Positions 4,528 through 45,298 of a stretch of DNA of 64,000 bases are shown here, piece after piece (position 1 is the first letter of the stretch; each line of letters opens with the position of its first letter). The DNA is taken from positions 90,566 to 154,565 of the forward strand of contig NZ_KB892866.1 in the NCBI RefSeq assembly GCF_000373965.1, given 5' to 3'. The position numbers and the translations under genes are program-made. Below the pieces are notes generated by a model. That model made no database searches. It saw nothing but the letters and a program-made list of their open reading frames with translations, and was not told the DNA's origin. The DNA comes from Uliginosibacterium gangwonense DSM 18521. GTDB taxonomy: Bacteria > Pseudomonadota > Gammaproteobacteria > Burkholderiales > Rhodocyclaceae.

Positions 4528-5283
4528 ATGAACAAATACATATGTGCCGTATGTCTTGGGATCATGTCCAGCATGGCATTTGCCGACGAAGTGCATGTAG
4601 GCGTGTTTATCCATTCACCGAACGTCTATCAAGACAAGCAGACAAACGTCATACGTGGCCCATCGATTGACTACATTACAACCAAACTGAGGAAGATGGG
4701 GCACACTCCCGTCGTTGTGGCTCAGCCCTTCCCGAGGCTGATGTTATCTCTGGAAAATGGTGACGTTGATCTTACTTTGGAGATTGCCAAAAATCAGGAT
4801 AGAGAAAGGTTTGCCTATTTCTCAAAAAAACCTATCTACATCATGCGGCCCGGAATAACCGTGCTGGTTGGTAGCAAACTCAGTAAAATTGAATCTGTCA
4901 ATAACCTGAACGGCATGACATTAGGTTTTCTTGCGGGGGCTGCAATCCCAGATTTCTTTGCAAACCAGCCCGCCGTTAAATTTGATCTGGTTTCGGGAGA
5001 CGATTGGTTGGCGAAAAATCTGGGGAAATTGTTGGCCGGACGAGTTGATGCGGTGTTTGACCAAAATGTTTACTCCTATCTGGCCGAGGCGAAAAAGAAG
5101 AATATTGGAGATAAAATTAAAACGATACCGTTGCCGGTCAAAGGCACTGAAGCCTTTGTTGCATTCTCAAAGAAATCAGCCGTTGGGGCAAAACTGCTTA
5201 AAGAGTTTGACGACGCCAATGATGACAAGGTGGATGTTATCAACTCCATGATAGAGAACGAATTGGCGAAGAGCGACCATTAA
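4528..5283 (+). CDS. Periplasmic solute-binding protein, family 3 (amino-acid type)
   Basis: This 251-residue protein has a signal peptide ending near SSMAFADE, followed by a two-lobed type II binding fold. The start strand EVHVGVFIHSPNVYQ leads into a GPSIDYITTKLRKMGH helix, the usual SBP_bac_3 opening. The hinge region reads LNGMTLGFLAGAAIPDFF. An ATG at 4504 would add eight residues before the signal peptide, but GGAG upstream of 4528 and the peptide itself favour the later start. No permease or ATPase is adjacent, so it may serve an unlinked ABC transporter or a sensor. Confidence 0.8.
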   Translation: MNKYICAVCLGIMSSMAFADEVHVGVFIHSPNVYQDKQTNVIRGPSIDYITTKLRKMGHTPVVVAQPFPRLMLSLENGDVDLTLEIAKNQDRERFAYFSKKPIYIMRPGITVLVGSKLSKIESVNNLNGMTLGFLAGAAIPDFFANQPAVKFDLVSGDDWLAKNLGKLLAGRVDAVFDQNVYSYLAEAKKKNIGDKIKTIPLPVKGTEAFVAFSKKSAVGAKLLKEFDDANDDKVDVINSMIENELAKSDH

Positions 5284-5313
5284 AAATGCGCCACAAGAAT
5301 CGGTGGCATTTTT
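5283..5313 (+). terminator. Terminator after the periplasmic binding protein
   Basis: AATGC-CCAC pairs with GTGGCATT around a short loop, with one bulged G, followed by a T tract. It begins at the stop codon. Confidence 0.75.
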
Positions 5314-5344
5314 GAATAATTAGGCTTGTCAGGCAACGACCAAC

Positions 5345-5371
5345 AAAAAGGCCCGGAATTTTCCGGGCCTT
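5345..5371 (-). terminator. Terminator of the DEAD-box helicase gene
   Basis: On the minus strand, AAGGCCCGGAA pairs with TTCCGGGCCTT, followed by a T run. It lies 25 bases beyond the helicase stop. Confidence 0.85.
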
Positions 5372-5395
5372 GCCTATTCAAGCAGATGATGTCGT

Positions 5396-6907
5396 TTATT
5401 CGTCGCGGTGGGCGCGGCTGAAGTTGCGGCGGCCGCCTTCGGTGGGAGGCCGGGGACGGGCGGGGCGGTCACCGGTGGGGGCGCGGTCATCACGGCGGTG
5501 GGCAAAGCCTTGGCCTGCGGGACGGGGGCGGTCGCTGAAGCTACGTTCGCCTGTGCCAGCAGGGCGCTCACGGCGTTCGGTGCTAGGGCGCTCGGCACCA
5601 AAGGCGGGGCGATCTGCGCCGAATGCCGGGCGGTCAGCACCAAAGCGGCTGCGACCGGAACCGGAATCGTTGCGGTCGGTACGCGGGCGATCACCAAAGC
5701 GGCGTTCGCCGGTGCGGGCGGGGCGACTACCTTCGGAGCCACGACGTTCGCGTTGCTCAGGATTGACGCGGGGTTCCAGCCCGGCAATGACCTGGGCAGG
5801 GATGCGCTGGGTGGTGAAGCGTTCGATGGCGCGGACCTTGAAGCGTTCGCTGGCCATGGCCAGGGTGGTGGCGATGCCAGCACGCCCGGCACGACCGGTA
5901 CGACCAATGCGGTGTACGTAATCTTCCGGCTTCATCGGCATGCCGAAGTTGATGACGTGGCTGATGTTGGGGACGTCGATGCCACGGGCGGCCACATCGG
6001 TGGCGACCAATATCTTGATGTGATCCCGGCGCAGGCTCGTCAGCGTGCGGTTGCGTTTGCCCTGGGGCATATCGCCGTGCAGCGCAGCGGCAGCGAAACC
6101 CTTTTCGTTCAGAGTGTCGGAGAGCCAGTCTGCATCGCGCTTGGTGGCTACGAATACGATGGCTTGTTGCACGTCTTCACCGCGCAGCAGGTGGTCGAGC
6201 AGGCGCAGCTTGTGGCTGCTGTCGTCGGCCCAGTGCAGGTGTTGGGTGATGTCGGTGTGGCGGTCGGTTTGGGAGGCGAGCGCAATACGCACAGGGTCTT
6301 GCAGCATGCCTTGCGCGAGGCGGCCGACTTCGCCGCCGAATGTGGCGGAGAACATGACGGTCTGGCGGTCTGCAGGCAGTGATGCGACGATCTGGTCGAT
6401 GTCTTCCTTGAAGCCCATGTCGAGCATGCGGTCGGCTTCGTCCAGCACAAGCATTTCGCAGCGGGAGAAATCGATGCGACCACGGCCGATGTAGTCCAGC
6501 AGACGGCCCGGTGTGGCGACCAGGATGTCAACCGATTGGCGCAGAAGCTTGATCTGTGCCGGGTAGGGCATGCCACCCACGACGGTGACGACAGACAGAC
6601 GCTTGAAGGCGCGGCCATAGGTGATTGCGGATTTGCCAACCTGTTGGGCCAGCTCGCGCGTGGGGCAGAGTATCAGGATGCGCGGGCCGATGCAGCCGGT
6701 AACGGTGGTGTTTTCGGTGAGGCGTTGCAGCGCGGGCAGCATGAAGGCTGCGGTTTTACCGCTGCCAGTGGCGGCAGAGACCATGAGGTCAGCGCCGGTG
6801 AAGGCGGCGGGGATGGCTTCGGCCTGAACAGAGGTGGGCGTGGTGTAACCGGCAGAGGTTACAGCCTTGAGAATGAGGGGGTGCAGGCCCAGTGAATCAA
6901 AAGTCAT
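5396..6907 (-). CDS. rhlE: DEAD-box ATP-dependent RNA helicase (RhlE type)
   Basis: The 503-residue protein opens directly with the Q-motif region (MTFDSLGLHPLILKAV, then GYTTPTSVQAEAIP). Motif I reads SAATGSGKT, motif II VLDEADRML, motif III SAT, and the helicase C-terminal lobe carries ATDVAARGID and HRIGRTGRAG. The last 110 residues are a basic, Arg/Gly/Asp-rich tail with a seven-residue repeat FGADRPA. This layout is that of RhlE helicases, which act in ribosome assembly and RNA decay. AGGA six bases before 6907 fixes the start; an upstream in-frame ATG at 7054 would add an unlikely 49 residues. Confidence 0.9.
   Translation of the reverse strand: MTFDSLGLHPLILKAVTSAGYTTPTSVQAEAIPAAFTGADLMVSAATGSGKTAAFMLPALQRLTENTTVTGCIGPRILILCPTRELAQQVGKSAITYGRAFKRLSVVTVVGGMPYPAQIKLLRQSVDILVATPGRLLDYIGRGRIDFSRCEMLVLDEADRMLDMGFKEDIDQIVASLPADRQTVMFSATFGGEVGRLAQGMLQDPVRIALASQTDRHTDITQHLHWADDSSHKLRLLDHLLRGEDVQQAIVFVATKRDADWLSDTLNEKGFAAAALHGDMPQGKRNRTLTSLRRDHIKILVATDVAARGIDVPNISHVINFGMPMKPEDYVHRIGRTGRAGRAGIATTLAMASERFKVRAIERFTTQRIPAQVIAGLEPRVNPEQRERRGSEGSRPARTGERRFGDRPRTDRNDSGSGRSRFGADRPAFGADRPAFGAERPSTERRERPAGTGERSFSDRPRPAGQGFAHRRDDRAPTGDRPARPRPPTEGGRRNFSRAHRDE
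5592..5646 (-). repeat. In-frame tandem repeat in the helicase tail
   Basis: About 2.7 copies of a 21-bp unit encode FGADRPA, FGADRPA and FGAERP in the disordered C-terminal tail. Copy number may vary between strains. Confidence 0.65.
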
Positions 6908-35109: not shown

Positions 35110-35543
35110 ATTTTTCTCTCATGAAGGCGGGGCAGGTGACGAGCGGGCAGCTGACCGCGCTGGTTCCAGAGGATGCTGGTGGTCGTCAGGCGCGTACCAG
35201 GGCCGTGTTTGTTGAACGCAATGCGTTCGGCTTTTTTGACCCTTTTATCAGCCAATGTTGGCCTGACTACTCCAACTCGATCCGCAAGCGTGAATACCGG
35301 ATTCCTACCGAGGTCTGGCGACAGATCATTGAACGCGTGTCAGACTTTCGTATGGCCCTGATGGCCGCGCAGGCGCCCGAAGCGCTGACAGGGATGGGAT
35401 TTGTCATGGGCAGCCACTATGGCGCAGCGGGGAACAATTTTGCCCAGACACAGCAGGGCATCGCCGGCCTGATTAGCGAACTTGTCGCATGGCTTCAAAG
35501 CGAACTGCCGTGCTGTGGTTATGTTGATATCGTGGACTTATGA
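35106..35543 (+). CDS. Uncharacterised 145-residue protein
   Basis: I do not recognise this soluble protein. It begins MNFSLMKAGQV and contains FVERNAFGFFDPFISQCWPDY, split by aromatic residues. A helical part reads VWRQIIERVSDFRMALMAA, and the protein ends CGYVDIVDL. A first ATG at 35097 touches the AGGGG ribosome site, whereas 35106 has it at a proper distance, so 35106 is chosen. Translation is coupled to the 41-residue ORF upstream. Immunity-type proteins often look like this, but no toxin is nearby. Confidence 0.6.
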   Translation: MNFSLMKAGQVTSGQLTALVPEDAGGRQARTRAVFVERNAFGFFDPFISQCWPDYSNSIRKREYRIPTEVWRQIIERVSDFRMALMAAQAPEALTGMGFVMGSHYGAAGNNFAQTQQGIAGLISELVAWLQSELPCCGYVDIVDL

Positions 35544-35605
35544 GCGCCAGCGCTTTGCCTGAAAATGGATAATGATTATTGCGATGACATGCGGCGCGTT
35601 GTGTA

Positions 35606-35899
35606 CTAGAACTCTTCCCGACTGATGACACGAATCATCTTTTCCTGCGGGTCGAATGCAATGCTCACGCGTTGGCTGTTGTCGCGCAAGATCAGATTGG
35701 CTTGGAAGTAGGTCCAACTCACGTAGATTGTGCCATCCACGCCATAGATGACTTCAGCTGGGGCCCCCAAGGTGGATTTGGCGTCCTGCAAGGTGGTGAC
35801 ACCGGGCTTGAAATTGCGGACGGTATGGTCATCCAGACGCTTGCCAACCGAGGTACAGGCAGACAAGAGCAGGGCGATCAGGATGAGTGCTCTTTTCAT
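35606..35899 (-). CDS. SmpA/BamE-like small lipoprotein
   Basis: This 97-residue protein has a lipoprotein signal peptide with lipobox LLSAC (Cys15). A domain follows with NFKPGVTTLQDAKSTLGAP, the typical GxTTxxxVxxxLGxP opening of SmpA/OmlA-fold proteins, and strands TIYVSWTYFQ and VSIAFDPQEKMIRV. Such proteins often stabilise outer-membrane complexes. It is shorter than true BamE and so probably a relative. It is on the same strand as the biosynthetic operon upstream but 55 bp apart, with TATAAT in the gap, so it may have its own promoter. Confidence 0.7.
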   Translation of the reverse strand: MKRALILIALLLSACTSVGKRLDDHTVRNFKPGVTTLQDAKSTLGAPAEVIYGVDGTIYVSWTYFQANLILRDNSQRVSIAFDPQEKMIRVISREEF

Positions 35900-35954
35900 G
35901 GCAACGTTCCCCGAGAAAGTGGGTTTTCTCCATTATAAAGAGTCTGGCCGCGTG

Positions 35955-36530
35955 TTATCCCTCCAGTGTGAAACTATTCAGGCTCGTATCCATCAGTTCA
36001 GCCAGGGTGGCGGGCAGCGGGGCGAAGCGCTGGGCTGTGGCCGGAACAAGGCGAAGCCACTGGCTGCTGGCGGGCTCGTCCTCCGACACCCAGCCCAGCA
36101 GTACCCCTCCTTTGGGGCGTGACTGACAGGCCAGTCGCAAGGCGTCCAGCGGATGGCGGGTGGTGAGGTAGCGCGCATCTCCTTGCCAGTTCAGTGCTTT
36201 GCACAGGTGAGCAAGTGCCTGATTGGCTTGCCCTTGCAGAAATCCCAAGGGGAGCGGTTGCCCATCCTGGGCTTCGACCAGTGAGTCACACAGCGCCTGC
36301 ATGGGGCCCCGTGGGCTGGCGAGGCTGATCAATGCGTTGGCAGGCAGGGTGGAGGCGGAGGAGGTGAACTCCCCCGCATTCTCCAGGCAACACAGGGCAC
36401 CATACAGCACCAGTTCCGCCCATGTACCGATACGCCGGGGTTTGTGGCCCAGGCGGATGGCAAGCGCTTGGCGCCAGTTGTCAGGCGGTGGGTTCAGGGC
36501 GCTGCGCCCAATGATCTGCCAGCCATTCAT
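35955..36530 (-). CDS. Beta-ketoacyl synthase-like protein (N-terminal-like domain only)
   Basis: The 191-residue protein resembles the short 'chain length factor' proteins found in aryl polyene and related operons. WAELVLYGALCCLENAG and LISLASPRGPMQALCDSLVEAQDGQPLPLGF follow the ketosynthase N-terminal fold in adjoining blocks. The catalytic Cys region is missing. It probably pairs with or modulates the full ketosynthase encoded just upstream, which it overlaps by 4 bp. It is the last gene of the nine-gene operon. Confidence 0.7.
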   Translation of the reverse strand: MNGWQIIGRSALNPPPDNWRQALAIRLGHKPRRIGTWAELVLYGALCCLENAGEFTSSASTLPANALISLASPRGPMQALCDSLVEAQDGQPLPLGFLQGQANQALAHLCKALNWQGDARYLTTRHPLDALRLACQSRPKGGVLLGWVSEDEPASSQWLRLVPATAQRFAPLPATLAELMDTSLNSFTLEG

Positions 36531-37579
36531 GAACGGTGCTCCAATATCACCGTGGCATGGCCCCCGCCAAAACCAAGGATGTTGCTCATCAGGTAACGCA
36601 CGGCTGGGAGTCGGGGCGCAAATCCCGCATTGAATGCCGGATCGGTTGCGTAACGAGCTGCTGGCCAGATTCGTTGGTCAATGCAGGCGGTGAGCAAGGC
36701 CAACTCCGCAGCGCCCGAGGCGCCCAAGGTGTGGCCGATTTCCGCCTTGAAGCTGATGAGAGAGGGCAGTTGCGGGAAAATCTCGCGCAAGCCTTCCAGT
36801 TCTATCGGGTCATTACCGGGGCTTCCCGCTGCCTGGAGTTTGATCAGGTCGATGTCATCGGCATTGGCACCGCCATCAGCCAGTGCGCGCTGGCACATCT
36901 GCGAAACGGCCTCTGCACGGGCCCCGGCAGGATCACAGCCATCTACAACATTGGCACCACCGCAGATACGCCAGGGGCTGGTTTCGCAACTGAGCCGCAA
37001 GGCCGCAACGGCTTCACCCAACACCAAACCAGCGCGGTCCGCCGCCAAGGGGCGGGGGCGGCGGGTGTCCAATAACTGCATGGCGCCAAAGCCCGCACAG
37101 GTATAGCGGTTGATAAGTTCCACCCCCAGCACCAGTGCTTCCTGGGCATGTCCGTTACGCAGGCAGGATAGGGCAGCCAAGATGGCGTTGGAGGAAGACG
37201 TGCAGGCCGTGGATATCCAATACACCGGCCCTTGCCAAGCCAGCCATTCTGTGAGCATCTCAGAAAATTGCAGGCAGTCTTCTTCGGGGGCTGTGCCATC
37301 TTCAAATGCGCCGATATTGAGTGAGCAAGACGCGATGAAGAGTGGAATGTTGCGATTGTTGGCACTACTTTCCATTACAACCTGCTGGCATAAGTGGCGT
37401 GCCCGCGCGTACCAATCTGGCTGGGGATCGGGAATGGCAAAGTAGGGCCACGCCAATGCTGGGCCTACCGATAATGATTGCGGCGCCACGCCGCCTGCCT
37501 GCAGCATGCGCAATGCCGACGGAATATCCTTTCCCAAGGCGCAGGCCAAGCCGCATCCCGCCAGAAAGACTTCATTCAT
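36527..37579 (-). CDS. FabF-like beta-ketoacyl-ACP synthase with altered active site
   Basis: This 350-residue enzyme is shorter than FabF (about 410). The nucleophile segment is ISTACTSSSNA (Cys126) and the second His motif IGHTLGASGA (His283) is intact. At the first His motif (HGTxTPxND) the sequence reads QAAGSPGND, so Gln249 stands where the catalytic His is expected. Decarboxylation of malonyl-ACP normally needs both His, so activity may be altered or the protein may use another starter. It overlaps the ACP gene by 4 bp and presumably works on that ACP. Confidence 0.8.
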   Translation of the reverse strand: MNEVFLAGCGLACALGKDIPSALRMLQAGGVAPQSLSVGPALAWPYFAIPDPQPDWYARARHLCQQVVMESSANNRNIPLFIASCSLNIGAFEDGTAPEEDCLQFSEMLTEWLAWQGPVYWISTACTSSSNAILAALSCLRNGHAQEALVLGVELINRYTCAGFGAMQLLDTRRPRPLAADRAGLVLGEAVAALRLSCETSPWRICGGANVVDGCDPAGARAEAVSQMCQRALADGGANADDIDLIKLQAAGSPGNDPIELEGLREIFPQLPSLISFKAEIGHTLGASGAAELALLTACIDQRIWPAARYATDPAFNAGFAPRLPAVRYLMSNILGFGGGHATVILEHRS

Positions 37580-37836
37580 GTGCGCTGTGCGGCCAGATAA
37601 TCAGCCAGGGTTTGCAGCGAGGCCATGGCCCGGCGCGTTTCCTTGCTGTCTGCAATGCGGATGCCCGTGCGCTTCTGGATGGCGACCGAAATCTGCAAAG
37701 CATCCAGGGAATCCAGTTCGAGGCGGGATTCAGGCCCGAACAGAGCCTCATCAGGGCTGAGGCCGCCTTCGGGTTCTTCCTTGTCGCAGGCTTCCAGAAT
37801 CAGGTGCTGGAGGTCGGGTAGAGAAATGTTTGTCAT
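37576..37836 (-). CDS. Acyl carrier protein (phosphopantetheine attachment)
   Basis: This 86-residue four-helix carrier protein has the attachment motif ELDSLDALQISVAI, with Ser43 as the predicted 4'-phosphopantetheine site. It is acidic as expected. Its ATG overlaps the permease stop and its stop overlaps the ketosynthase start. It would carry the growing acyl chain for this operon. In dialkylresorcinol pathways the matching role is called DarC. Confidence 0.9.
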   Translation of the reverse strand: MTNISLPDLQHLILEACDKEEPEGGLSPDEALFGPESRLELDSLDALQISVAIQKRTGIRIADSKETRRAMASLQTLADYLAAQRT

Positions 37837-38990
37837 GATTTGACACGGCGGTGGAACAACAAAACGGCAGTCATACCCATGAGCAGGGCAAAGCCTGCCA
37901 GTCGAGTGGCATAAGGCAGCACGGCAGCCAGATCCCCCCCGCGCAGGAGAACCTGCAACAAGCCCTCCAGCGCCCAGTTCATGGGGGAGAAGTGGGCAGC
38001 GGTCTGCATGATCGCAGGCATTACGAAGCTGGGCACCATCACTCCGCCAATAGCCGCCATCAGGATATTGCACATTGGCCCCAGGGTGGAGGCTTGGGCA
38101 TGGGTGCGCACCAGGCAGGCCAGCATCAGGGCAAAGCCAATCGCCGCAAGGCTGGTACTGGTCAGCACGAGGATGAGCGCAGGCCAGTGAATGCCCGCCA
38201 GTGAAAGCGCTTCGCCGCCCAGGTGAGGCATCAGCCAGACGCCAACAGACAACATCAAGACTGCTTGTATTGCATTGACCAACAGGTAGGGCAGGGCTTT
38301 GCCCAGAATCTGCTTGCCCGCAGGAACGCCAATTGCATGGAGCCGGGCAAGCGTGCCATCGCGCTGCTCCTGCACAAACAAAGTGGAAATCGCAGTGACC
38401 ACAAAGAACATGCCGAACACCAGCCACGCAGGTACATTCTGCTGCACGGAGGTGGGGTGGGTGCCTGCGCCGATACGTTCTGCCGAAACCATGGCGGGGA
38501 TGTCTTGCCCCGGCGGGCTGCTGATCCCCATAAAGCGTTCCTGCAAGGCATTGGATCGTTGCATGCCCACGGCTGCGGCCAGTTCCGCTTCGGTGCTGCG
38601 GAACAGGGCATGTTCCAGACCCGGCTCTGCATACAGATGCACCTTGATGCTGCGGGGCGCATTCGGTGTGCTCATCGCCTCGGAAAAACCCTTGTCGATG
38701 ACAAGCACGTAACGCAGCCTGCCTGCGCGAAGGGCCTCACGCCAATCGGCGGGCGAAGCAGTGGCTGCGTTGTGCAGATGTTGCCATTGGGCAAGCAGGG
38801 CCTTGGCCTGGGGGCCTTGGTCCTGATCCTGTACGGCGTACTCAAGCTGGCGATTCTTTGGGCTGTAATAGTCTTGCAGCGCCAGAGACATGATGACGAT
38901 GAAGGCCATCGGCATCAGGAACAGGGCCGCCATGCCATGCGGGTCGCGTAGCAGGGCGAGGAGTTCCTTGCGGATCAGGGCGAAAAGCAT
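37833..38990 (-). CDS. ABC-2 type transporter permease
   Basis: The 385-residue membrane protein has one N-terminal helix with ALFLMPMAFIVIMSLAL, a large periplasmic domain (about 45-170) and five or six C-terminal helices with FGMFFVVTAISTLFVQEQRDGTLARL. That layout is ABC2_membrane_3. It overlaps the ATPase gene by one base. Together they form an exporter, likely for the lipid-like product of the operon. Confidence 0.9.
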   Translation of the reverse strand: MLFALIRKELLALLRDPHGMAALFLMPMAFIVIMSLALQDYYSPKNRQLEYAVQDQDQGPQAKALLAQWQHLHNAATASPADWREALRAGRLRYVLVIDKGFSEAMSTPNAPRSIKVHLYAEPGLEHALFRSTEAELAAAVGMQRSNALQERFMGISSPPGQDIPAMVSAERIGAGTHPTSVQQNVPAWLVFGMFFVVTAISTLFVQEQRDGTLARLHAIGVPAGKQILGKALPYLLVNAIQAVLMLSVGVWLMPHLGGEALSLAGIHWPALILVLTSTSLAAIGFALMLACLVRTHAQASTLGPMCNILMAAIGGVMVPSFVMPAIMQTAAHFSPMNWALEGLLQVLLRGGDLAAVLPYATRLAGFALLMGMTAVLLFHRRVKS

Positions 38991-39913
38991 CAGTCGTCCC
39001 TCAACTGGCGATGGGTCAGATGCATGAACAGGCGCTCCAGATCATGGCTGCCGTAGCGGGCCATCTGGAGTTCGATGCCGTGTGCTGCAATGGCCTGCAA
39101 AACTGCTGCAGGGCTTGCTTCAGGATTGAGCTGAAGCTCAATCTCGCCATCCCCGCCTTGCTGCACGCTGCCAAAACTTTGGAGCATTGTCTTTACGGCA
39201 TCCAGGGGGGCAGCAACGCGTAGCGTCAATAGTGCGCCCCCTTCGGCCAGCAAACTTGCCAGAGGCGCGTGGCGCAGGATGGTGCCGTGATCGAGGATCG
39301 CCACGTCATCGGCAATCGCTTCAATCTCCTCAATGTAATGCGTGGTGTAGATCACCGTGGTGCCCGCCTGTGCCAGTGCTTTGACGGCATCAAGCAGAAA
39401 GGCGCGTGACTGGGGGTCGACCCCCACGGTAGGCTCATCAAGCAGCAACAGTTCCGGCTCCGCGAGCATGGCAATTGCCAGATTCAGACGACGTTTGAGC
39501 CCACCGGAAAGCTGGTTGGCACGCGTGCTGGCAAAGCGTTCGAGTTGCCCCAGCGCCATGCAGGCGGTGATGCGGACCACTTTGCGTGACCCATGAAACT
39601 GGCATGCCGAGGCGAAGAAGGAGAGGTTCTCGGCCACCGTCAGCATCGGGTAGAAAGCGTATTCCTGTGGGGCTAGGGCGATCCGCATAGGGCATTCGCG
39701 GCGGGATTGTGCTAGCGGCAGGGTATTGATATGGATTTCTCCATGCTGGATGGGTAATAGACCCACTAGGTGAGAGATCAGCGTGGTCTTGCCTGCGCCA
39801 TTTGGGCCCAGCAGGCCCAGCACACGGCCACGTTCAAGCCCCAGCGATACGGCATTGAGCGTGGTTTGCGCTGCACCCGGATAACGGAAGGAAACATCCT
39901 GGATGTTCAGCAT
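38990..39913 (-). CDS. ABC transporter ATP-binding protein
   Basis: The 307-residue ATPase shows Walker A LGPNGAGKTTLI (residues 35-46), Q-loop ALAPQEYAFYP, signature NQLSGGLKRRL, Walker B LLLLDEPTVGVD and an H-loop TTHYIEE. It belongs to the drug/lipid exporter subfamily with a short C-terminal domain. It pairs with the permease encoded next. Confidence 0.93.
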   Translation of the reverse strand: MLNIQDVSFRYPGAAQTTLNAVSLGLERGRVLGLLGPNGAGKTTLISHLVGLLPIQHGEIHINTLPLAQSRRECPMRIALAPQEYAFYPMLTVAENLSFFASACQFHGSRKVVRITACMALGQLERFASTRANQLSGGLKRRLNLAIAMLAEPELLLLDEPTVGVDPQSRAFLLDAVKALAQAGTTVIYTTHYIEEIEAIADDVAILDHGTILRHAPLASLLAEGGALLTLRVAAPLDAVKTMLQSFGSVQQGGDGEIELQLNPEASPAAVLQAIAAHGIELQMARYGSHDLERLFMHLTHRQLRDD

Positions 39914-39918
39914 GGTGC

Positions 39919-40896
39919 CTAGACAGTCTTGCCCAATGCCCGGAAGAAAGCTTCTTCGCTGGCGGCCTGCTGCATGAGTAGCGCAGCGATGGCGGGTGGG
40001 TCGAGCGCGTCACGTCCCTTGACCATGCGGGCGGCCGCCAGTGCCACATCACGCCAGGCGTCACCAATTTCCATCAGGCGTTCGGAGCATTCGCCCAGCG
40101 CGGCAATGCCGGTAATATCACGCGCTTCCTGCAAAAATGCTGCGTAGATAAAGCGGAAACCAGCCCCGCCTGTGCCGATTTCCTCCTGCATGCGTACAAC
40201 ATGACCAATGAACGGGCTGCTCATGGCGTCTTTTGGATCAAGCTTGGCAATGCGCCGTGCCAGCATGCGGATGCCGCGCACGCCGATGATCGGGACCGGG
40301 GCCAGCATGTTGCGCGCTGTTGTGCGGATAGCCGGGCGGATGGCCTCGGGCTTTACGTTGTCATATGCAGGGGTAATGGGGTAGTACAGCAAGCCTTGCG
40401 GGGCCAGCGCACCTTTGGCAAAGCGGGCGCGGTTCAGGTCTGCTGTGGCACAGCGTTGTGGTTCTTCGGCCACAGGGTCGCCAATGAGGTAGTCGTCCCC
40501 CTCTTTGCCATACACAACGAGGTTATGCGCATTGAAGTGGAAACGCATGCTCTCGGGAAAGTAGGGCAGCCAGAATACTGATGTCTGCAAGCCTACGATC
40601 TGGCCGCTTGCCAGCAGTTCATCTAGACGACGCTGTCCGTCTTCCACAGAGCGGAATTTCTCGAAGCGGAATTGGGTGCCAAATGGCTTTGCGGCACCCT
40701 TGAGGATGGCTTTTGGGAGCATCCGATAGGCGATCAGGGGCAGGCCGTTGATGCGCACGAAAGGCAGGTAGGCAAACGATAGCCCTGCGGCAATCCCAAA
40801 GGCCATCGGCTCGGTGATTGTGGCGCCGTGGTGGCGCAGCAGGTTGGCGGCGGTGCCACTCTCGCAATGGGCCGCGTGCTGGTGTTGATAGCTCAT
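39919..40896 (-). CDS. BtrH-like acyltransferase (papain-like, with DUF4872-type C-terminus)
   Basis: This 325-residue protein begins with HCESGTAANLLRHHG, the BtrH N-terminal motif. Cys11, His124 (in HFNAHNLVVYG) and Asp140 (in LIGDP) are candidates for a Cys-His-Asp triad. In butirosin synthesis BtrH moves an acyl group from an ACP to an amine. Here the dedicated ACP in the same operon is the obvious donor; the acceptor is unknown. The C-terminal part (about 190-325) is helical. Confidence 0.85.
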   Translation of the reverse strand: MSYQHQHAAHCESGTAANLLRHHGATITEPMAFGIAAGLSFAYLPFVRINGLPLIAYRMLPKAILKGAAKPFGTQFRFEKFRSVEDGQRRLDELLASGQIVGLQTSVFWLPYFPESMRFHFNAHNLVVYGKEGDDYLIGDPVAEEPQRCATADLNRARFAKGALAPQGLLYYPITPAYDNVKPEAIRPAIRTTARNMLAPVPIIGVRGIRMLARRIAKLDPKDAMSSPFIGHVVRMQEEIGTGGAGFRFIYAAFLQEARDITGIAALGECSERLMEIGDAWRDVALAAARMVKGRDALDPPAIAALLMQQAASEEAFFRALGKTV

Positions 40897-41297
40897 GGCT
40901 GCTCCGGCAGTCGGCTGATCTGGTCAGGGGTAAGTCCCAGCGCATCGGCATAGCGTGCCAGGAGTGCAGGGGAAAGGCGGGCAAATACGGCGGGGCGCAG
41001 ATGGCGGCGGATACGCCAGCGCCATAGGCCGGTGACTTGCGCAAGCATCTCTATATCCATGCGTCGAGCATAGATCCAGTATTCCAGCGGTGCGCTTTGC
41101 CCTGCCTGTATGCGTTGGCGGGCTGCGTCAGCCTGTGCCTGCAAGGTGTCGATGGCCTGCGTGGTGACGATTTCCTCCACCTCCCAGCCGTTGGATGGGG
41201 TCATGACCATGCGCCCGGACTCGTCCCGCGCATACATGGCCTTGCGATAGCCGCCAAGGGTCCGGTTGTTGTCCTGGGGGACTTCGTCAAGTTTCAT
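40893..41297 (-). CDS. Operon-embedded 134-residue protein with an HTH-like C-terminus
   Basis: The N-terminal part reads DNNRTLGGYRKAMYARDESG and the C-terminal 50 residues look like a Cro/XRE-type fold: DIEMLAQVTGLWRWRIRRHL, then LLARYADALGLTPDQI. It overlaps both neighbours by 4 bp, so it is made together with the biosynthetic enzymes. It may regulate the operon or, if the fold has been repurposed, hold the enzyme complex together. I know no characterised member. Confidence 0.6.
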   Translation of the reverse strand: MKLDEVPQDNNRTLGGYRKAMYARDESGRMVMTPSNGWEVEEIVTTQAIDTLQAQADAARQRIQAGQSAPLEYWIYARRMDIEMLAQVTGLWRWRIRRHLRPAVFARLSPALLARYADALGLTPDQISRLPEQP

Positions 41298-42427
41298 ACT
41301 GCCTCCAGCATGACAAAGCCACAGGAGAATCGCCCGCTTTCCGGCACAAACATCAGCAGGCGTTGCCCGCGATGGACGTGTCCGGAGCGAAATAATTCAT
41401 CTAGCATAATATAAGGTGAGGCCGAACCGGTGTTGCCACGCGTGGTGAGGTTGGTGAACCAGCGCTCACGCGGGATGGGCAAGCCGATTTCCTTCAATGC
41501 CTGTTCAACCGGCTCAGCAAAATACATTGAGGAAATGTGCGGAAGAAACCAGTCAATGTTTTCTGCATTGAGCTTGCGTTTGTCCATCAGTGCCTGTAAC
41601 GGGTCGCGCAAGGTGGCACGCACGATGTTGTCATTGAGGAGCTTGACGTCTTGCTTGACGGCAAAGAACGAGCGTGTGCCCCACTCCGTTTGCGGCGTGT
41701 GCCGCCAGCTGTGCAGTGCGTGCCCTTCGTCTTTGTCTGCGCCCATATACATGCAGGCGGGCAGTTCGTGTGCGGCGGATGAAAGCTCGATCCACTCGAT
41801 GCGCAGCGAGAGCGGGCCACGCGGGATAGATTCCAAAAGCATGGCGCCCGCACCATCGGAGAGCATCCAGCGCAGAAAGTCCTTTTCGAAGGCGATCTGG
41901 GGCTGGGTTTGCAGCACGTCGATCTGGTGAGCCGTTTCTGCCTGGAAAAAGTGCCCGCGCAGGGCCGGCGAGGCCAATTCCGAACCGGTAGCCACTGCCC
42001 GTTGTGCCTCACCACTGCGCACCGACAACCAAGCATGCTTGAGTGCCGCCGTGCCTGCCAGACAGATGCCTGCAAAAGCGACGGCTTCAAGGCGTGGCCA
42101 TTTCAATTCGCCATGCACCATCACGGCATGGTTGGGCATCAACTGGTCTGGCACAGAAGTGCCAGTGGCCAGACAATCGATGGGGCCCACATCGCCAAGT
42201 TCGCGGATGGCTTCGGCCGTCATCTGCGCATTGCTCATGGCATTTTTGCCGGAGGCCCGGTCAATAGCGTAGTGCCGGCTCTGGATACCGTTGCTCTTGA
42301 GGATTAGGCGGCGTGCGCGCGAAGGGCGATTACCCACCATGCCGAGCACTGTTTCAATCTCATCGTTATAAACCGGGGCAAACGGCAGAAAGGCTGCCGT
42401 GCGGGTAATGTAAACCTCAGAAGTCAT
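41294..42427 (-). CDS. darB: Beta-ketoacyl-ACP synthase III-like ketosynthase (DarB-like)
   Basis: The 377-residue thiolase-fold enzyme keeps the FabH triad: Cys122 in FAGICLAGTAALKHA, His297 in FLPHISSMYFAEP and Asn332 in TTRGNTGSASPY. In dialkylresorcinol synthesis DarB joins a beta-ketoacyl thioester with an unsaturated or second acyl unit. Pairing with a DarA-like gene, overlapping by 11 bp, supports this assignment. A plain starter-unit FabH is the alternative. Confidence 0.8.
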   Translation of the reverse strand: MTSEVYITRTAAFLPFAPVYNDEIETVLGMVGNRPSRARRLILKSNGIQSRHYAIDRASGKNAMSNAQMTAEAIRELGDVGPIDCLATGTSVPDQLMPNHAVMVHGELKWPRLEAVAFAGICLAGTAALKHAWLSVRSGEAQRAVATGSELASPALRGHFFQAETAHQIDVLQTQPQIAFEKDFLRWMLSDGAGAMLLESIPRGPLSLRIEWIELSSAAHELPACMYMGADKDEGHALHSWRHTPQTEWGTRSFFAVKQDVKLLNDNIVRATLRDPLQALMDKRKLNAENIDWFLPHISSMYFAEPVEQALKEIGLPIPRERWFTNLTTRGNTGSASPYIMLDELFRSGHVHRGQRLLMFVPESGRFSCGFVMLEAV

Positions 42428-43403
42428 ATTGCGACAAACGATCTATGCCCGAGCCGGAGGGCTGTTCAAATTGCTGCTTGAGCTTGTCGAGACGCTTGGC
42501 CAGAAAGGGGCGCAGCAGGGTCTGCACGACAAGGCTGATTGGGACCACGCTCAGGATGATGGCAATCAGAAACAGTACGTAGAGCACCAGCAAGGGCTGG
42601 CGAAGTGTGGCGCCTGGGGGGCCTGCCCAACGCAGGAGCTTGCCCCACAGGTAAAAACTGCGTGTGCCTGCTTTTTCGCTCACCAGCAGGCGGGGGTTGG
42701 CCACCACGGCCTGCAGACCAGGGAGCAAGGGTTGGTCGTTGCACTCACGCCCCGCCAGCAAAGCGTCAAGCAGCGCGCGCCCGAAACGGATGCAGCGCTT
42801 GATCTCAAGTTCGGAGATGCCCGCAACGGGCAGGCATGCAAGGGCTTGGCGCTTGCCGGTAAAGAGCCATAGTGGCGTGGTGACCAGACTCGCCAAGGTA
42901 GGGGTCTGGTCTGTCAGCACCACATTGTCCAGCAAACGTGCTTGCAGCGCGGTGAGCAGACCACGCATCTTTTCGTGTGCCAACATCCACATGTTACGGC
43001 AGCCAATCACGGTGATCACCGGTTTGCCTTTGATCAGACATGCCGCGACCGGGTGCTTGAGGAAGGCGGTGATGGGCTGGCAGGGAGCCAGAAACCAGAC
43101 CTGGTAGGGCAGGATCACCAGATCGAAGTCTTCCTCGCCGGTAAGTGTCAGTGGTGCCAGGGCGGGAGGGACTAGATGTGCCGATTCCGGGAAGGCATCA
43201 AAGAACCTGAAGAACGACCAGGGAAAGGGGAATGCTGGCTCCGGGCGCAGTGTTTCTACATGCACCGCGATACGAGCATCGGCGCGCAGAGGAGCCAGGA
43301 TGCGCTCAACGATAGCGGCGAGCTGCCCGGTCTGGGAATAGGAAACGACCAACACGCGTTTCAGGGGGCCGGGTGACATGGCCTCGGGAACAGGGTGGGT
43401 CAC
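42417..43403 (-). CDS. darA: DarA-like protein (dialkylresorcinol-type cyclase/oxidase, flavodoxin-like)
   Basis: This 328-residue protein starts with a flavodoxin-like strand-loop VLVVSYSQTGQL. It contains FDLVILPYQVWFLAPCQPITAFLKHP and VITVIGCRNMWMLAHEKM in adjoining blocks, and ends with a hydrophobic helix pair at about 275-305. These are features of proteins named dialkylresorcinol condensing enzyme DarA, which act with DarB to close or oxidise the ring. GTG 43403 with AGGA at 8 bases is preferred over the later ATG at 43379. It is the first gene of the operon. Confidence 0.75.
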   Translation of the reverse strand: MTHPVPEAMSPGPLKRVLVVSYSQTGQLAAIVERILAPLRADARIAVHVETLRPEPAFPFPWSFFRFFDAFPESAHLVPPALAPLTLTGEEDFDLVILPYQVWFLAPCQPITAFLKHPVAACLIKGKPVITVIGCRNMWMLAHEKMRGLLTALQARLLDNVVLTDQTPTLASLVTTPLWLFTGKRQALACLPVAGISELEIKRCIRFGRALLDALLAGRECNDQPLLPGLQAVVANPRLLVSEKAGTRSFYLWGKLLRWAGPPGATLRQPLLVLYVLFLIAIILSVVPISLVVQTLLRPFLAKRLDKLKQQFEQPSGSGIDRLSQYDF

Positions 43404-43697
43404 GGAGTCATTCCTAGACAAGTTGTAAGAAAAGGTAAACGGCACATTCTAGCAGGATACATGGTTTCTCATAAGGAATTTGCCCGATGAACGTGCCTTT
43501 TGCCGCAAATTTGAAGAGGCTTCTCGTGCCTGCGGATCAGTCGGTCAGCCCCGTAAGCCAGCGGCGATCCGCCAGCCGGTCATCCAGAGGTCGTTAGCGT
43601 GGTGCTAGGATGCCCAGCGACAAATCTTGGGCGCGCCAACTGATGGGGGACTACCCTTCAAGAAGTGAAGCCTTCGCTGATTGATGGAGATTTTTAT

Positions 43698-44216
43698 ATG
43701 AAACCGGCTCAAATCCTTTTAGCTCTGCTTGCGGCACTGGTTGTGATGCCGACACAGGCTGCTGACGTTGGAGTATCCATTTCTGTTGGGCAGCCTGGCT
43801 TCTACGGGCGTATTGATATCGGCGACGTCCCTGCCCCGCAGGTAATTTATACCCGTCCCGTCATGATTGAACGGGTGCCGGACGATCGCCCACCCATCTA
43901 TCTGCGGGTACCGCCAGGGCACGCCAAGAACTGGGGTAAGCACTGCCACGCTTACCATGCCTGTGGTGAACGGGTATTCTTTGTGCGCGATGATTGGTAT
44001 CAGCGCGAGTACGTGCCACGTCACGAAGGGCATCGAGATGGCCCCGTGATGCGTGACGACCGGCAATTTGAGCACAGGGAAGAGCGTCGGGATGATCGAC
44101 GTGATATGCGTCGGGACGAACGGCGCGATGACCGCCGGGGCGGTGATCAGGATCGTCGTGATGACAGAGGCGGGCGTGGTCATGGTAATGACCGCCGCGA
44201 TGATCATGGACGTTAA
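43698..44216 (+). CDS. Secreted protein with a charged Arg/Asp-rich tail
   Basis: The 172-residue protein has a signal peptide ending near PTQAADVG. A compact domain follows (about 25-110) with VSISVGQPGFYGRIDIGD, PPIYLRVPPGHAKNWGKHC and a His/Cys cluster CHAYHACGERVFFV. The last 60 residues are a low-complexity tail of RRDDRR-type repeats. The front half resembles the DUF3300/YXWGXW-like 'GYW' periplasmic proteins seen in betaproteobacteria. GGAGA precedes ATG 43698. The His-rich and Asp-rich composition suggests metal or nucleic-acid contact, which is unproven. Confidence 0.65.
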   Translation: MKPAQILLALLAALVVMPTQAADVGVSISVGQPGFYGRIDIGDVPAPQVIYTRPVMIERVPDDRPPIYLRVPPGHAKNWGKHCHAYHACGERVFFVRDDWYQREYVPRHEGHRDGPVMRDDRQFEHREERRDDRRDMRRDERRDDRRGGDQDRRDDRGGRGHGNDRRDDHGR

Positions 44217-44606: not shown

Positions 44607-44798
44607 ATGGTTCCAACTTTTGGCATGTTTGATTTCCTTCCCGTGCGTCTGGCCCGTGCTGAAGCCGATGATCGGGAGCGTCAAGAATACCTCGGAGAAG
44701 TCCGCCGCAACAGCACCCAATTCGGTGCCCATGAAGCTGAAGGCCAAGCCCACGCTGATGCCTGCCTGCGCATGGCTATGTTGCTGAATCGCTTCTAA
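44607..44798 (+). CDS. 63-residue small protein, tandem paralogue 1
   Basis: The protein starts MVPTFGMFDF and shares about half its residues with the 63-residue protein 500 bp downstream, including ADD-ER, YL-EV and STQFG. It is predicted soluble and largely helical from residue 18 on, ending in Arg-Phe. AAAGAGAG supplies the ribosome site. A dedicated promoter and a strong terminator frame it, so it is probably a well-expressed monocistronic gene. I recognise no family. Confidence 0.8.
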   Translation: MVPTFGMFDFLPVRLARAEADDRERQEYLGEVRRNSTQFGAHEAEGQAHADACLRMAMLLNRF

Positions 44799-45106: not shown

Positions 45107-45298
45107 ATGGTTCCGACATTTGGCATGTTTGATTTTCACCCCACCCATGTTGCGGCGATGGGAGCGGATGACGCTGAACGGGAAGGCTATCTTGCTGAAG
45201 TGACGCGTCACAGCACACAATTTGGTCATGGTGCGCGTAATGAAGCCGCTGCGCATACCGAAGAAGGTTTGCGTCTGGCACTGATGCATCGTTTCTGA
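45107..45298 (+). CDS. 63-residue small protein, tandem paralogue 2
   Basis: This is the second copy of the small-protein gene. The first ten residues are identical to copy 1, and the block YLAEVTRHSTQFG is close to its counterpart. Differences cluster at residues 11-18 and 41-55, leaving a conserved N-terminal segment and a helical end LRLALMHRF. The shared promoter, leader and ribosome site (TAGAAAGAGAG) show that the whole unit was duplicated, not just the coding part. The function is unknown. Confidence 0.8.
   Translation: MVPTFGMFDFHPTHVAAMGADDAEREGYLAEVTRHSTQFGHGARNEAAAHTEEGLRLALMHRF

Follow-up and report, generated by a model that had tools for sequence, protein, structure and literature searches.

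A nine-gene operon of Uliginosibacterium gangwonense that looks like the dialkylresorcinol module of an arcuflavin-type pigment pathway

Using a 64,000-nucleotide stretch of the U. gangwonense DSM 18521 genome (C33:90566-154565 of the source genome, hereafter the window), we analyzed a tight operon of nine minus-strand genes, and observe that it matches, in gene content and in order, the dar genes printed for the pigment arcuflavin in Azoarcus sp. BH72. We put at about 0.9 the probability that this operon belongs to an arcuflavin-type pigment pathway as its dialkylresorcinol (DAR) module, and hold the explanation as a whole almost as firmly; the single steps in it are much less certain, namely that DarJ-DarK would load the acyl carrier protein (ACP) DarC, DarE would join polyene to resorcinol, and DarF-DarI would export the product. 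Since its gene set matches a described pathway, the operon itself looks ordinary, and would provide the resorcinol part of a yellow pigment known from earlier work, in which a resorcinol is joined to a long aryl polyene; by analogy a polyene-DAR ester would be the product in this organism. This removes one apparent orphan operon by tying it to a described pigment class, and narrows the question of how polyene and resorcinol are joined in flexirubin- and arcuflavin-type pigments to five candidates, DarD, DarE, DarC, DarJ and DarK.

Match to the arcuflavin dar genes of Azoarcus sp. BH72

Table 1 of the BH72 study (PMC3949708) gives azo0293 to azo0283 as darA, darB, darD (hypothetical), darE (BtrH-like), darF (ATP-binding cassette (ABC) ATPase), darG (prevent-host-death, PHD), darH (PilT domain), darI (ABC permease), darC (ACP), darJ (ketosynthase, KS) and darK (hypothetical). 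Compared with this printed table, the nine genes of the window are darA, B, D, E, F, I, C, J and K in that order, and we use these names throughout, noting that BH72 DarD is the "DarG" of NCBIfam and BH72 DarE its "DarH". The two gene sets differ in that darG and darH sit between darF and darI in BH72, whereas the window lacks both, with a 1-bp overlap of darF and darI. In BH72 the two have the look of a toxin-antitoxin insertion outside the pathway, and we do not take them as defining for this type of operon. In one relative (L039, G026:C1), a phd-family antitoxin gene and a frame that is PIN-like by eye, and that matched no NCBIfam model, lie between darF and darI (5092-5741); 4 of the 87 same-strand darF-darI pairs measured in relatives have a gap of more than 300 bp, L039 among them.

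The BH72 study reports that the DAR proteins form a DAR in Escherichia coli, and that the DAR fragment of arcuflavin is by mass spectrometry identical to the DAR from the heterologously expressed proteins; the second fragment is a xanthomonadin-like polyene, the link between the two is predicted to be an ester, and the m/z of BH72 arcuflavin is 608.386 (PMC3949708). Arcuflavin-like gene sets are also reported there for Dechloromonas aromatica, Variovorax paradoxus S110 and Sideroxydans lithotrophicus (PMC3949708). Our own search found all nine dar genes in the order of the window in a V. paradoxus locus (L107), and eight in this order in a Dechloromonas locus (L073), where darK gave only a weaker match.

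These findings revise in part a sequence-only reading of the same DNA. Its description of nine packed genes that overlap or lie within 5 bp of each other was borne out, all frames being open where it had placed them, and it had named the families correctly (a dialkylresorcinol-type operon with its own ACP, a BtrH-type protein, an ABC transporter and a small helix-turn-helix (HTH)-like protein); its ketosynthase-like last gene, darK, is supported by profile and fold searches. It had further claimed that no characterised product was known for this exact set, which does not stand, as the same set and order are printed for BH72 and group with a described aryl polyene pathway (PMC3949708), an outcome that it had itself named as refuting; on this match we reject a new operon of unknown product. 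The families also co-occur in many other loci, contrary to what it had offered as a possible refutation. The "unknown acceptor" it proposed for the acyl group would most likely be the resorcinol made by DarA and DarB.

Polyene loci elsewhere in the genome

As in BH72, arc-type polyene loci are present at two more places in the genome, and both arc locus types were matched (on contigs C24 and C2) in a comparison that left out arcA, arcF, arcG and arcL. The C24 locus is much like BH72 arcB-arcK, and contains an aryl polyene (APE)-type KS over the model cut-off and a PF13723 protein, together with a reductase, a methyltransferase, a GT2 protein, a PlsC-like acyltransferase, MipA, a FabF-like KS and an ACP; the frame at the place of the dehydratase matched no model. 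The methyltransferase is a difference from BH72, in a comparison without arcA, arcF and arcG. This locus also encodes an FkbO/Hyg5-type chorismatase-family protein (TIGR04444, 229 bits, below the cut-off of 325), and the aryl polyene of this genome is probably started from a chorismatase product. The C2 genes (polysaccharide deacetylase, weakly hydrolase-like protein, MMPL exporter, LolA-like protein, LpxL-like acyltransferase and AMP-ligase) match BH72 arcN to arcT in their order, and where arcS would be expected stands an ApeI-like frame that scores below its cut-off. The dar operon and the two polyene loci lie on three separate contigs, whereas in BH72 dar is about 20 gene numbers from arcM-X.

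Operon structure and the DarA, DarB, DarC, DarF and DarI proteins

A frame check showed all nine minus-strand frames to be open from 43403 to 35955, with neighbouring frames overlapping by 1 to 11 bp and a single gap of 5 bp (39914-39918), and model families were assigned to 7 of the 9 proteins (Pfam and NCBIfam, E 0.001). No sigma-70-like promoter was found within 35500-43800 (shuffled mean 2.9); the 11 terminator-like sites in the same interval (shuffled mean 6.7, sd 2.8) were not used as evidence.

The first gene, darA (42417-43403, 328 aa), has a GTG start, with an in-frame GTG upstream that would extend it to 43445. Because no Pfam or NCBIfam model matched its product at E 0.001, we identify it as the dialkylresorcinol aromatising partner by co-linearity with BH72 and by relatives found beside DarB; darA and darB are adjacent in the window, and none of the 81 same-strand darA-darB pairs measured in relatives has a gap above 300 bp. 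A DarA search in plasmids gave three Streptomyces matches, each named hypothetical protein, and was uninformative. DarB (41294-42427, 377 aa) is a StlD/DarB ketosynthase (NF005293, 578.6 bits, cut-off 450), with His297 and Asn332 in 91 of 91 aligned rows and Cys122 in 87 (four gaps), and DarC (37576-37836, 86 aa) is an ACP (PF00550, 22.3 bits, cut-off 20.8), with Ser43 in 81 of 81. DarF (38990-39913), an ABC ATPase (PF00005) whose best NCBIfam relative is of the DrrA type, below the cut-off of that model, and DarI (37833-38990), an ABC-2 permease (PF12698 and PF01061), together form a predicted exporter.

DarD and DarE

DarE (39919-40896) is a predicted BtrH-type papain-like acyltransferase (NF053550, 477.6 bits, cut-off 300; PF14399 and PF16169), and Cys11, Gln104, His124 and Asp140 are each present in 97 of 97 rows (one alignment was made without L032, L046 and L047), with the Cys, His and Asp being the putative catalytic residues. 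Its upstream neighbour DarD (40893-41297, 134 aa) scores 175 bits against NF053536 (cut-off 70). In an AlphaFold model with a pLDDT of 88, the C-terminal half of DarD is HTH-like, and XRE-type HTH proteins are among its best Foldseek matches; all of these are weak, the best with E 0.032 and none below E 0.001, so that DarD may be either a regulator or an enzyme partner. When sequence profiles of DarD and of DarE were compared with solved chains, neither gave a convincing match; one DarD alignment covered the window protein and 44 of 78 DarD references. The two genes lie at most 300 bp apart in 91 of the 94 same-strand pairs measured in relatives.

DarJ and DarK

The last two genes encode a full-size KS adjoining a half-size protein with the KS fold, of the chain-length-factor (CLF) type. 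DarJ (36527-37579) is ApeO-like, and its nearest solved chains are 7f28_B (ApeO, Acinetobacter; E 4e-30) and 6qsp_A (ApeO, Xenorhabdus; E 6.5e-24); 7F28 is ApeO-ApeC according to the data statement of its source paper. In a DarJ tree of 85 rows, which carries long-branch and composition warnings, 75 rows form one DarJ clade (100/100), separate from the KSs of the genome itself, including the polyene KS. The Cys-His-His triad of KSs is incomplete in DarJ of the window, with Cys126 and His283 present and Gln249 at the place of the first His, the usual HGT histidine. In the 75-row clade this position is Gln in 42 rows, the window included, and His in 33, and the Gln is restricted to a 53-row, mainly beta-proteobacterial clade (42 Gln, 11 His); the Azoarcus/Thauera branch keeps His, BH72 itself being outside the sample. 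A looser set of 81 rows gave 42 Gln, 38 His and one gap at this position, with Cys126 kept by all 81 rows and His283 by 80 (one gap). We prefer the 75-row count because the looser set includes hmmsearch picks that fall outside the DarJ clade (L082, L101 and L113), and one pick (L127) that is probably another KS. A match of DarJ to the NCBIfam AmcF "acyltransferase subunit" was set aside, as two other KSs of the same genome match AmcF harder.

For DarK (35955-36530, 191 aa), neither Pfam nor NCBIfam gave a match at E 0.001, and in the comparison of profiles its best matches are polyketide synthase KS chains (7s6b_A, E 4.5e-5), with ApeC (7f28_A) at E 7e-4. Its AlphaFold model (pLDDT 91) has 7f28_C (ApeC) as best Foldseek match (E 5e-6, TMq 0.63). 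Compared by hhalign with the DarJ alignment, DarK gave a probability of 46 (E 2e-4). On the model, the KS fold class is certain, while the likeness to ApeC is moderate because FabH-type synthases follow closely in the fold search. Arg32-Arg33 is present in 46 of 47 aligned DarK rows (one gap), and recalls ApeC Arg30-Arg31, a pair suggested to contact the ACP (PMC8358021), as compared without superposition; a separate alignment covered the window protein and 32 of 47 DarK references. No Cys is present in residues 122-129 of DarK in the window, where by eye the active site is expected; in other rows a Cys occurs at column 124 (11 of 47) or 123 (2 of 47).

Conservation of the operon in relatives

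We compared the best 80 of 585 loci, all of which were found through DarE, so that this gene is present by construction; two loci are repeats (L031 = L052 and L044 = L080) in the rows used for presence, gaps, residues and the DarJ tree. The dar genes of these 80 loci form two blocks, A-B-D-E and F-I-C-J-K, with the second on the opposite strand in L098, L100, L106, L109-L112, L118, L121, L123, L125 and L128. Presence was counted in the 45 loci with sufficiently long flanks (>6 kb and >7 kb): darD and darE are present in all 45, darF, darI and darC in 44, and darA and darB in 43. The darJ count of 41 is an upper bound, because the hmmsearch picks were loose, and the 29 for darK are matches at E 1e-5; DarK diverges fast.

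Several loci carry darD and darE without the resorcinol genes. These are L111, with no darA or darB there, and two metagenome-assembled genomes, L126 (Syntrophaceae) and L127 (Deltaproteobacteria), in which D-E lie near KS, acyltransferase and B12/radical-SAM genes, in L127 with an ACP gene also nearby, and with no darA or darB in the fetched stretch. DarD-DarE are thus not strictly tied to resorcinol synthesis. Elsewhere in these genomes, DarB gave a two-piece match below the cut-off in L126, only 21.7 bits in L127 and none in L111; in the genome of L105 a full match over the cut-off was found.

Two loci of the same genus as the window differ in their structure. In L046 (G122:C105:76000-91000), the dar operon seems broken, since for darB, darD, darE, darF and darJ the best tblastn piece is no more than partial; this genome (G122) has PF13723 over the cut-off, and in this single case the resorcinol genes may be degenerating ahead of the polyene genes. 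In L037 (G074:C4), spacers of 523 bp (D-E, containing a 150-aa frame), 503 bp (E-F), 326 bp (I-C) and 638 bp (C-J) stand where the window has overlaps or 5 bp, and a repeat search found no convincing element shared by these spacers.

Distribution of dar genes across genomes

Our survey covered 150 genomes of the family, 369 of the class (one shared) and 14 controls, with PF13723 serving as a mere proxy for a polyene locus. Of the 150 family genomes, 17 have DarE (NF053550) over the cut-off, a number that rises to 21 at E 0.001; PF13723 is present in all 17 and in 35 of the 133 others (Fisher p 2e-9). Of the class genomes, 18 have DarE over the cut-off (21 at E 0.001), 21 DarB (NF005293) and 87 PF13723, with DarB and PF13723 both present in 18 of 18 DarE genomes. 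The controls contain no DarE over the cut-off, one DarB and one PF13723. Sub-cut-off DarE-like matches with PF13723 occur in G122 and G250. In four genomes a DarB-like protein scores 312-414, short of the cut-off; neither DarE nor PF13723 was matched in them, nor DarA within the stretch fetched, and these proteins may not be DarB at all.

Proposed pathway and alternative explanations

In the pathway that we propose, DarA and DarB would build the resorcinol, and the C24 and C2 loci would build and handle the aryl polyene. DarJ-DarK, acting as a transacylase, would accept the completed polyene from the ACP of the polyene pathway and pass it to DarC; DarE, a putative Cys-His-Asp acyltransferase working with DarD, would then transfer the polyene from DarC onto one of the phenolic hydroxyls of the resorcinol, and DarF-DarI would export the ester towards the envelope. 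The parts of this scheme are not equally probable. We give DarE roughly even odds of being the ester-forming enzyme, for which BtrH, an ACP:aminoglycoside acyltransferase (PMC10318531), offers by analogy a precedent of acyl transfer from an ACP to an acceptor; DarD would be its putative partner in this step, and DarC the putative donor. The transacylase role of DarJ-DarK is tentative. A KS without the first histidine can still transacylate. A two-stage relay in which a non-extending KS/CLF, Cys-Gln-His in much of the beta-proteobacterial branch, shifts the polyene from ACP to ACP and DarE with its HTH-like partner makes the aryl ester is a little more doubtful still; if true, DarD-DarE would be a portable esterification unit, found also beside other KS clusters without nearby DarA/DarB (L126 and L127). 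A literature search, limited in reach, found no paper giving a tested role to DarE, DarJ or DarK.

Several observations weigh against the proposed pathway. The link of the BH72 DAR to the pigment rests on mass spectra, the pigment mutants being arcK and arcT, with no dar mutant among those reported (PMC3949708), and the flexirubin authors propose a ligase-like protein, FlxW, for the joining step (PMC3992019). Gln249 is not universal, since 33 of the 75 DarJ-clade rows, including the Azoarcus/Thauera branch, keep His. PF13723 is present in 21 of 21 DarB class genomes, so that the co-occurrence of DarE with PF13723, being no stricter than that of DarB, adds little by itself, and the counts are not independent because the genomes are related. 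Sub-cut-off DarE-like matches occur without PF13723 in three family genomes (G131, G036 and G133) and two class genomes (G162 and G287). Lastly, three class genomes with PF13723 and with DarB over the cut-off (G253, G347 and G370) contain DarA and DarB but no DarE over the cut-off, and the 18.7-19.0 kb fetched from each show no further dar gene at E 0.001, and so the resorcinol and polyene halves can coexist without DarE.

Some of these observations suit a different division of labour, which we consider possible, at about the same level as the transacylase role: DarJ-DarK would be an ordinary condensing KS-CLF that makes, with DarC, a special beta-keto acyl chain from which DarB forms the side chain of the resorcinol, DarE would hydrolyse or edit acyl-DarC, and ester formation would fall to a ligase or acyltransferase encoded in the polyene loci. 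The conserved Cys126 and His283, and the His retained in part of the DarJ clade, are as expected of a condensing enzyme, whereas the Gln in 42 of 75 rows, the window included, is not. That another enzyme makes the ester would agree with the FlxW proposal (PMC3992019), with the LpxL-like and PlsC-like acyltransferases and AMP-ligase of the polyene loci, and with DarA-DarB loci lacking DarE in PF13723 genomes. For an APE without a DAR, in E. coli, ApeD and ApeJ are proposed for attachment to the lipid anchor (PMC8253772), which may be another route for a polyene. Against this division of labour also stand the BtrH-domain precedent, a transferase (PMC10318531), and the D-E pairs of L126 and L127, which neighbour KS and acyltransferase genes while neither darA nor darB lies in the stretch fetched.

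The sequence-only reading, in which the product is a resorcinol lipid, free or with another acyl group, that is separate from the polyene, appears unlikely. DarA-DarB give free DARs in Pseudomonas, and the placing of dar and polyene loci on different contigs here, whereas BH72 dar is about 20 gene numbers from one arc locus, fits such a product. Against it, the pigment of BH72 requires both arc loci although these are not linked to each other (PMC3949708), and in none of the genomes surveyed (150 of the family, 369 of the class) does DarE over the cut-off occur without PF13723. A strict (Bacteroidota) flexirubin operon is hardly credible: the DarB, DarD and DarE-type families are common to both, but NF053545, the flexirubin DarG model, gives 125.6 (cut-off 170) and NF053539, the DarB model specific for DARs, gives 461.9 (cut-off 550), and we reject this type on these two scores. 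The polyene locus also has an FkbO/Hyg5-type gene as against the tyrosine ammonia-lyase of flexirubin (PMC3992019), a point that concerns this locus, since the genome was not searched for an ammonia-lyase.

Other frames in the window

Adjoining the operon on the opposite strand is a plus-strand frame (43665-44216) whose C-terminal part is repetitive and Arg/Asp-rich. Further along, two plus-strand frames of 63 aa, 500 bp apart (44607-44798 and 45107-45298), are strikingly alike, with a MVPTFGMFDF start and STQFG common to both, and are possibly duplicated small genes.

Comparison with known systems

Beyond BH72, the operon can be set beside three known systems. With the flexirubin pathway of Chitinophaga pinensis and Flavobacterium johnsoniae (PMC3992019) it shares the predicted aryl polyene DAR ester, DarA/DarB, and DarD- and DarE-type families under common NCBIfam models; it differs in falling below the flexirubin-specific cut-offs, and in that a chorismatase-family gene replaces the tyrosine ammonia-lyase. 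BtrH of butirosin biosynthesis (PMC10318531) and DarE have the PF14399 domain in common, and DarE has an ACP gene in its own operon, whereas the acceptor is an aminoglycoside for BtrH and would be a resorcinol phenol for DarE, the likeness being a domain match made without a DarE-BtrH alignment. With ApeO-ApeC (7f28 and 6qsp; PMC8358021), the half-size CLF and the Arg-Arg pair are held in common, and among solved structures DarJ is nearest ApeO by sequence and DarK nearest ApeC by fold; in contrast, DarJ is shorter, has Gln249, and sits in a clade of its own.

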